Part shown: piece by piece, positions 3,308-5,318 of the stretch
Position numbering within the stretch: position 1 is the first letter of the stretch
How the letters are laid out: each line of letters begins with the position of its first letter
From: a bacterium
GTDB lineage: Bacteria; UBP14; UBA6098; 4484-93
Length of the DNA: 10,169 nucleotides
Assembly: GCA_021158465.1 (NCBI GenBank)
Contig: JAGGUN010000030.1
Span: forward strand, 1 to 10,169
Reading direction: 5' to 3'
The notes under the pieces: model-generated
What the model saw: the letters and a program-made list of their open reading frames with translations, nothing else
Database searches by the model: none
What the model was told of the DNA's origin: nothing
Made by a program: the position numbers and the translations under genes

Positions 3308-3901
3308 ATGAACATAGATGCAAAACTGGTAAAGAAACTCCGCGATATGACAGGCGCTGGTATGATGGATTGCAAGAAGGCTCTCGTCAAGACGGGAGGC
3401 GATATTGATAAGGCGATAGAGCATCTTCGCAAGACTGGAGCAGCAAAGGCTGCCAAGAAACTGGATAGGGCTGCGAACGAGGGACAGGTTATCTCCTATA
3501 TCCATCCGGGCGGGAAACTTGGAGTGCTTGTTGAGCTTAACTGCGAGACGGATTTCGTCGCCAGGACACCAGAGTTCCAGGCTCTCGGAAAGGATATCGC
3601 TATGCAGATAGCGGCTACCGACCCGATCTCTGTCTCCATCGAAGAGCTGCCGCAGGACATCGTCGAGAAGGAAAAGGAGATATACATCGAGCAGGCGCTC
3701 TCGAGTGGCAAGCCGAAAACCATAGCCGAGAGGATCGCCGATGGAAAGCTTAAGAAATTCTACGAGTCAGCCTGCTTGCTTGAACAGGAGTTCATTAAGG
3801 ATTCCTCCAGAAAAGTAAAGGATATAATTATGGAGCTTATCGCCAAGGTTGGTGAGAATATCCGAGTTTCGAGGTTCGCAAGGTTCAAGATAGGAGAATA
3901 A
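3308..3901 (+). CDS. tsf: Elongation factor Ts
   Basis: This encodes 197 residues. EF-Ts is the guanine nucleotide exchange factor that reloads EF-Tu. An N-terminal UBA-like domain (about 1-55, containing TGAGMMDCKKAL) is followed by the core with NCETDFVAR (78-86), the motif that inserts into EF-Tu. GKLKKFYESACLLEQEFIKD (147-166) is the conserved C-terminal motif. The length matches the short single-core type seen in Thermus, rather than the roughly 280-residue E. coli type. ATG 3308 follows GGAG (3298-3301) inside the 3' end of rpsB, with three bases between the genes, so the two are probably translationally coupled. A 128-base gap separates it from the best pyrH start. Confidence 0.96.
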   Translation: MNIDAKLVKKLRDMTGAGMMDCKKALVKTGGDIDKAIEHLRKTGAAKAAKKLDRAANEGQVISYIHPGGKLGVLVELNCETDFVARTPEFQALGKDIAMQIAATDPISVSIEELPQDIVEKEKEIYIEQALSSGKPKTIAERIADGKLKKFYESACLLEQEFIKDSSRKVKDIIMELIAKVGENIRVSRFARFKIGE

Positions 3902-3978
3902 GAAGAAATATCAGAGGGCTGTAAAAATCTCTTGAGGGTTCCAGGAATTATCTCACGCCGATGGTCAGGGAAATAGCT

Positions 3979-4017
3979 ATGAGGGGTTGGGTTTTCTCAA
4001 CCCCTCGATCCTTATAA
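3979..4017 (+). other. Possible short upstream ORF before pyrH
   Basis: ATG 3979 opens a 12-codon frame (MRGWVFSTPRSL) that ends at TAA 4015-4017, directly before the pyrH ribosome binding site and in the pyrH frame. AGGGA (3967-3971) lies seven bases upstream of the ATG. ATG 3961 extends the same frame to 18 codons, but without a good site. The hairpin at 3981-4006 lies inside it. Nothing shows that it is translated; it may be chance. Confidence 0.2.
3981..4006 (+). promoter_or_regulatory. Strong hairpin between tsf and pyrH
   Basis: GAGGGGTTG (3981-3989) pairs perfectly with CAACCCCTC (3998-4006) around an 8-base loop. It is followed by GATCCTTATAAG, with no run of T, so it is not a classical intrinsic terminator. 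It ends eleven bases before the pyrH ribosome binding site. It may act as an RNA processing or stability element, or help adjust pyrH expression relative to the upstream ribosomal genes. Confidence 0.5.
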
Positions 4018-4029
4018 GAGGAGAGAGAC

Positions 4030-4746
4030 ATAACGCAACAGAAGTACAACCGTATTCTGCTCAAGATATCCGGTGAGGGGTTACTTGGCGAGAAGGAGTT
4101 TGGGATAGAGCCGGAACGGATAGCAGAGATAGCGGAGGAGCTTGCCGAGGTAAAGCAGCTTGGGGTTCAGGTGGGTGTGGTCGTTGGAGGTGGTAATATC
4201 TTCAGAGGGCTATCCGGTGTCTCGCTCGGCATCGACCGGATCACCGGCGACCTCATCGGAATGCTTGCCACTATTATGAACTCGCTCGCTCTTCAGACAG
4301 TGCTTGAGAAGAGGTTCAATGTTGAGACTCGTGTTCTCTCCGAGATTGAGGTCCCACAGCTTGCCGAGCCGTATATCAGAAGAAGGGCGATAAGACACCT
4401 CGAAAAGGGGAGGATTGTTATCTTTGCGGGTGGCACAGGGAAGCCTTTCTTCACTACGGACACAGCAGCAGCACTGAAAGCAGCGGAGGTTTCTGCCGAT
4501 GCTCTACTAAAGGGAACAAAGGTGGATGGCGTCTTCTCCGACGACCCCGAGAAGAACCCGAACGCAACATTCTACAAAAATCTCTCATATAGGGATGTTT
4601 TATCCAGCAACTTGAGGGTTATGGATTCGACCGCGGTCTCGATGTGTATGGAGAACTCCATTCCGATAATCGTTTTCAACTTCAGTGAGCCTGGGAAGCT
4701 AATCGAGGTCGTCAGAGGCAAGAGCGTTGGAACAATAATTTCATAA
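4030..4746 (+). CDS. pyrH: UMP kinase (uridylate kinase), non-canonical start
   Basis: PyrH phosphorylates UMP to UDP with ATP in the cytoplasm; it is a hexameric amino-acid-kinase-fold enzyme. From the chosen start the protein is 238 residues, the usual length. KYNRILLKISGEGLLG (5-20) is the N-terminal phosphate-binding region, GGGNIFRG is at 53-60, DR..GD..GMLAT at 69-81, then GTGKPFFTTDTAAALKA and VDGVFSDDPEKNP. The oddity is the start. In-frame TAA sits at 4015-4017, and the first in-frame ATG, GTG or TTG is GTG 4171, which would delete the first 47 residues, including the nucleotide-binding lysine/glycine motif. GAGGAG (4018-4023) places ATA 4030 (spacing six) or ACG 4033 (spacing nine) as likely starts. 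Family identity is certain; the exact start is not. frr follows after 14 bases. Confidence 0.9.
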   Translation: MTQQKYNRILLKISGEGLLGEKEFGIEPERIAEIAEELAEVKQLGVQVGVVVGGGNIFRGLSGVSLGIDRITGDLIGMLATIMNSLALQTVLEKRFNVETRVLSEIEVPQLAEPYIRRRAIRHLEKGRIVIFAGGTGKPFFTTDTAAALKAAEVSADALLKGTKVDGVFSDDPEKNPNATFYKNLSYRDVLSSNLRVMDSTAVSMCMENSIPIIVFNFSEPGKLIEVVRGKSVGTIIS

Positions 4747-4760
4747 GGAGGAAAGCGAGA

Positions 4761-5318
4761 ATGATAGAGGAGATTCTCAAGGAGTGTGAGAGCAGGATGA
4801 AGGAGGCGGTCGAGAGTTTTTCTGCCGAGGTTGCCAGGGTTCGCACCGGAAAGGCAACGCCGGCTCTCCTGGACGGGATAAGGGTGGATTATTACGGCGC
4901 ACCAACACCGCTCAAGCAGATAGCCAACATTAGCACTCCTGAGCCAAGGCTCCTGGTAGTTCACCCTTGGGACAAGGGCGTCTTGCCTGAAATAGAGAAG
5001 GCGATCCTGAGATCAGACCTTGGGCTTATGCCATCCAACGATGGGAATGTTGTGCGAATCCCTATCCCCCCCTTGACCGAGGAGCGAAGGCACGACCTCG
5101 TGAAGCTTGTCAAGAAGATGGCAGAAGAGGCAAAGACCGAAGTCCGCAATATCCGCAGGGATGCAAACGATAAGGCAATATCCGCCAAAAGATCAAAGGA
5201 GATAAGCGAGGATGAGGAAACGCTCATACTGAAGAAGGTTCAGGAGTTAACCGATAAATACACAGGCAAGGTGGAGGAGATCTTTAAGCACAAGGAAAAG
5301 GAGATTATGACGATATAA
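4761..5318 (+). CDS. frr: Ribosome recycling factor
   Basis: This encodes 185 residues, exactly the typical RRF length. With EF-G, RRF splits the post-termination ribosome so that its subunits can be reused. ARVRTGKATPALLDGI (25-40), YYGAPTPL (44-51) and the long helical C-terminal stretch are family hallmarks. VRNIRRDANDK (128-138) contains the arginine corresponding to E. coli Arg132, which is needed for activity. The AAGGAGG ribosome binding site overlaps the pyrH stop codon (4744-4751), nine bases before ATG 4761. pyrH-frr adjacency is near universal, but the usual followers uppS, cdsA and dxr are absent; an oxidoreductase and lpxB come next. Confidence 0.97.
   Translation: MIEEILKECESRMKEAVESFSAEVARVRTGKATPALLDGIRVDYYGAPTPLKQIANISTPEPRLLVVHPWDKGVLPEIEKAILRSDLGLMPSNDGNVVRIPIPPLTEERRHDLVKLVKKMAEEAKTEVRNIRRDANDKAISAKRSKEISEDEETLILKKVQELTDKYTGKVEEIFKHKEKEIMTI

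Follow-up and report, generated by a model that had tools for sequence, protein, structure and literature searches.

How does translation of pyrH begin in a genome where the reading frame of this essential gene offers no usual start codon ahead of the conserved part of its product? The question is raised by the window analysed here, a 10,169-nucleotide stretch of bacterial DNA (contig JAGGUN010000030.1). The frame encoding UMP kinase is open on the forward strand from an in-frame TAA at 4015-4017 through to the TAA at 4744-4746. From 4015 it reads TAA GAG GAG AGA GAC ATA ACG CAA CAG AAG TAC AAC CGT ATT CTG CTC AAG ATA TCC, and the first ATG, GTG or TTG to follow the upstream stop is GTG at 4171-4173.

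A preliminary description of this DNA had placed the conserved N-terminus of PyrH within that gap, and both the frame and a protein family match confirm it. Read from ATA at 4030, the coding sequence (4030-4746, plus strand) comprises 238 codons and the stop codon TAA, and its product is a full-length member of TIGR02075 (E value = 4.9e-97, 324.1 bits against a curated cut-off of 243.9). The match covers positions 1-233 of the 233 in the profile and begins at residue 6 (Tyr, 4045), and solved UMP kinases align with the product from residues 2-5 on. GTG 4171 was considered as the start and rejected: the conserved N-terminus lies 5′ of it, and it is not credible because 47 residues would be lost. 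The gene is single copy, with no second pyrH found in the genome (2.04 Mb, completeness 97.6%). Its neighbours rpsB, tsf (elongation factor Ts, upstream, 3308-3901, plus strand) and frr (ribosome recycling factor, downstream, 4761-5318, plus strand) all have ordinary ATG starts.

Two codons had been proposed as the start, ATA at 4030-4032 and ACG at 4033-4035, both on the plus strand behind a Shine-Dalgarno sequence given as GAGGAG at 4018-4023. The Shine-Dalgarno sequence is indeed present, and is better read as AGGAG at 4019-4023 (plus strand). We compared this region with the pyrH locus of one congener (NATO01000082.1), so that conservation is judged on a single pair of genomes from the same genus, about 86% identical at the DNA level in this stretch. 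In the congener the region reads TAG GAG GAC GGT TAC ATA ACA CAG CAT AAG TAC AAC, with the upstream stop (TAG in place of TAA) and ATA at the same place, a Shine-Dalgarno sequence, and again nothing canonical to start from ahead of the conserved N-terminus. There the frame reaches a canonical codon, an ATG, only after about 30 codons, at a position that differs from that of GTG 4171. Between these two genomes ATA is kept while the next codon has changed from ACG to ACA and the spacer has diverged. Of the changes that precede the first canonical codon, 1, 1 and 10 fall at codon positions 1, 2 and 3, a codon-like pattern.

The comparison decides between the two proposed codons. ATA is retained, and ACG is disfavoured because the congener has ACA there; as a start it would lie 8 and 11 nt from the Shine-Dalgarno sequence in the two genomes. 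For ATA the aligned spacing is 5 nt in this genome and 8 nt in the congener, whose AGGAGG lies about 3 nt further away, and canonical genes usually have 3-10 nt. On this evidence pyrH probably initiates at AUA 4030, with ACG as its second codon (Thr). An Ile codon could remain ATA by chance between two genomes. The 12 pyrH codons at 4042-4077 are also identical in both species, with no synonymous change; such a run has a p value of 0.27 over the whole gene and a weak p value of 0.02 for the first 25 codons.

Outside the genus the picture is different. We surveyed about 107 other pyrH loci, from relatives in the same class to distant phyla, and each has at least one canonical codon in the region; only this genus was flagged as having none. 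The alignment of upstream regions that had been suggested as a check thus shows an ATA common to the congener and canonical codons elsewhere, and the AUA-type start of pyrH appears specific to this lineage because all of those other loci carry a canonical codon. In the open-access literature we found no account of pyrH starting at a non-standard codon.

To place pyrH among the other genes of the genus, we compared orthologous frames in stretches of 1.06 Mb from this genome and 0.75 Mb from the congener. This screen covered 373 frames with 5′ ends inside contigs, in one genus pair, and counted codons only up to the point where either genome first has a canonical one. Many rows of an early version reflected starts further upstream or cut contigs and were left out by the final form. 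Four of the 373 frames (pyrH, infC, thrS and queD) are convincing, combining coding conservation before the canonical start with a recognisable N-terminus. The changes at codon positions 1, 2 and 3 number 3, 4 and 21 for thrS, 2, 2 and 9 for queD, and 0, 1 and 2 for infC. Other high-scoring rows (among them C20 2145, C41 9958, C31 13944 and C34 65867) had no clear third-position excess or known N-terminus; they were judged by inspection, without a formal cut-off, to be nearly identical or non-coding frames and were dismissed.

All four genes have an ATH codon 4-8 nt past a Shine-Dalgarno sequence in both genomes, an arrangement that occurs by chance in 9% of Shine-Dalgarno and frame combinations. 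Besides the pyrH values given above, the aligned spacings are 4 for ATA or 7 for ATC/ATT in infC, 6 for ATT and 4 for ATA in thrS, and 5 and 6 for ATT in queD.

The infC gene, which encodes IF3, was found in the genome, and in this genus (L119, minus strand; L116, plus strand) it lacks a canonical start 5′ of the RVN motif. Its start region reads AAGGAGGGGTA-ATA-ATC/ATT, where AAGGAGG is followed by two candidate start codons. With few changes to count, it is mainly the conserved RVN motif and precedent that apparently place the infC start at one of them. In two class members of another family (L113 and L114), infC has ATC after GGAGG and no canonical codon near, which fits the ATC and ATT starts of infC reported elsewhere (PMC5472188).

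In neither genome does thrS offer a canonical start ahead of the TGS domain; the first such codon lies about 70 codons further on. Its start region is AAAGGAGGAAGTGC-ATT-ATT-CAT in this genome (L154, G000:C24:60001-74667, minus strand) and AAGGAGGGAGT-ATA-TCT-ATT-CAT in the congener (L172, plus strand from about 382). The best-spaced codons of the two genomes are not homologous, which leaves more than one candidate for the exact start. The queD-like gene, a PTPS gene (PF01242) at G000:C41:122776-123187 (plus strand, in L195), likewise lacks a canonical start 5′ of its conserved N-terminus; the sequence is AAGGAGGGGGAA-ATT in this genome, and the congener (G001:C121, L177) has AAAGGAGGGAGAAA-ATT.

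Could the unusual start of pyrH be an artefact? The main alternative in the preliminary description was a one-base assembly error, and a sequencing error would have the same effect: ATA would stand at 4030 in place of a real ATG. One base change would restore a normal start, contigs of metagenome-assembled genomes can contain errors, and ATG is the start of most other pyrH genes. A one-base error is nevertheless very unlikely, because the ATA arrangement recurs in the congener, which is another species with its own record, in different surroundings, with another second codon and another spacer. In addition, infC, thrS and queD share the pattern in both genomes, so that several matching errors would be needed. 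Initiation at some other non-standard codon in frame is also quite improbable. ACG 4033, ATT 4057 and CTG 4060 all lie near the PyrH N-terminus, and CTG and ACG are known weak start codons; against them, ACG is the codon that the congener has as ACA, while ATT and CTG are without a Shine-Dalgarno sequence and, as starts, would remove part of the conserved KYNRILLK stretch. Least probable of all, and hardly to be expected, is entry into pyrH by frameshifting out of an upstream open reading frame in another frame. Both genomes do have short open reading frames 5′ of the start region or running over it, but their relative frame differs between the two, the Shine-Dalgarno sequence directly precedes ATA, and inspection by eye showed no conserved slippery site near the pyrH start.

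The leader of pyrH contains one further conserved feature. A hairpin, GAGGGGTTGGG-TTTT-CTCAACCCCTC, at 3981-4007 (plus strand) ends about 11 nt 5′ of the Shine-Dalgarno sequence and has no T tail. It is kept in the congener, with a shared stem of about 9 pairs, while the remainder of the tsf-pyrH spacer has diverged. Searched as a pattern, it is unique in the 1.06 Mb taken from this genome, and the 0.75 Mb from the congener contain, besides the copy in the pyrH leader, a single weaker look-alike. Around 3700-4300 neither promoter patterns nor T-tailed terminator patterns were found, and Rfam gave no match near pyrH, the hairpin included. A role as a transcript-end, processing or leader element is possible, and pairing of its loop with the Shine-Dalgarno sequence is conceivable. 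Folds over the Shine-Dalgarno sequence and the start have z-scores near 0 when the upstream hairpin is excluded, and therefore suggest no strong sequestering fold.

Next, we considered how an AUA start could be read. Three tRNAs with a CAU anticodon were found in the stretches, one of them of the initiator type with a GGG/CCC anticodon stem as read from its sequence. Among the tRNAs found there, none is an initiator-like tRNA reading AUA, so the ordinary initiator would have to decode AUA despite a mismatch at the third base. We propose that the Shine-Dalgarno sequence places the 30S subunit at AUA 4030, where fMet-tRNA (anticodon CAU) would pair through the first two bases only; since pairing would be limited in this way, initiation would be inefficient. 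IF3, which rejects near-cognate starts, would then set the yield of PyrH. Because infC itself appears to start at AUH (AUA, AUC or AUU) in both genomes, the levels of IF3 and UMP kinase would be coupled, along with those of ThrS and QueD.

The strength of these proposals differs. For repression of pyrH by IF3, argued by analogy with E. coli, Streptomyces and Staphylococcus, we see the case as evenly balanced, and the idea put forward in the preliminary description that UMP kinase output is tied to initiation fidelity is plausible, with indirect support from the non-canonical starts that infC, thrS and queD seem to have in this genus. A small IF3-sensitive regulon of IF3, threonyl-tRNA synthetase, UMP kinase and QueD, defined only by AUH starts behind Shine-Dalgarno sites, is a more doubtful suggestion. 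Alternatively, the AUA start may be real but neutral, the product of drift from ATG to ATA in a gene whose leader suffices for expression, with no meaningful control by IF3. We regard such drift as a genuine possibility, though we do not favour it. The codon is one transition away from the ATG of class relatives (for example L014, ata ATG act cca aaa tat). Set against it are the retention of ATA across the divergence of two species, when one base change gives ATG, and the occurrence of an AUA pyrH together with infC, the classical gene under IF3 control.

Initiation at AUA has clear parallels in known systems. Initiation at non-standard codons is destabilised by IF3, which also controls its own gene, infC, and represses Streptomyces sigR, a gene with a GTC start; infC itself begins with ATT in E. 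coli and with ATC in Streptomyces (PMC5472188). The pyrH start resembles E. coli infC (AUU, under IF3 autocontrol) and pcnB (AUU) in having a near-cognate AUH codon, a Shine-Dalgarno sequence and a third-base mismatch with the initiator, and infC of this genus appears to have a near-cognate start too, as in E. coli. Unlike those two genes, pyrH is a gene of nucleotide metabolism, its codon is AUA, and control by IF3 is what we infer for it. In Staphylococcus aureus, infC, ccpN and citZ start at AUA and cvfC1 at AUU, and reporters for ccpN and citZ gave about 10-30% of the AUG output (PMC13009471). As in the AUA genes of S. aureus, some of which are conserved among relatives, a Shine-Dalgarno sequence is followed by AUA in pyrH, and standard annotation misses such starts. 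The S. aureus starts are backed by ribosome profiling and reporters, whereas the AUA of pyrH is read from comparison; they also have extended Shine-Dalgarno motifs, whereas pyrH here has the weaker AGGAG. Finally, sigR is, like pyrH, a gene other than infC with a non-standard start, and serves as a model for control by IF3. It differs from pyrH in encoding a sigma factor, in its GTC codon and in that repression by IF3 was shown by experiment (PMC5472188).

The AUA start of pyrH is therefore mechanistically familiar, and what is surprising is the gene, which is essential and metabolic; a weak start is unexpected in the gene of an essential enzyme. Gene finders limited to ATG, GTG and TTG would truncate the pyrH product, as has been reported for sigR and infC. 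If AUA is used as we read it, non-standard starts extend to core nucleotide metabolism, and comparing two related genomes yields candidates for such starts without experiments. If IF3 controls these genes, the identity of the start codon alone could define a regulon. Were that regulon real, start-codon fidelity would jointly determine how much IF3, charged tRNA, pyrimidine nucleotide and tRNA modification precursor is available.
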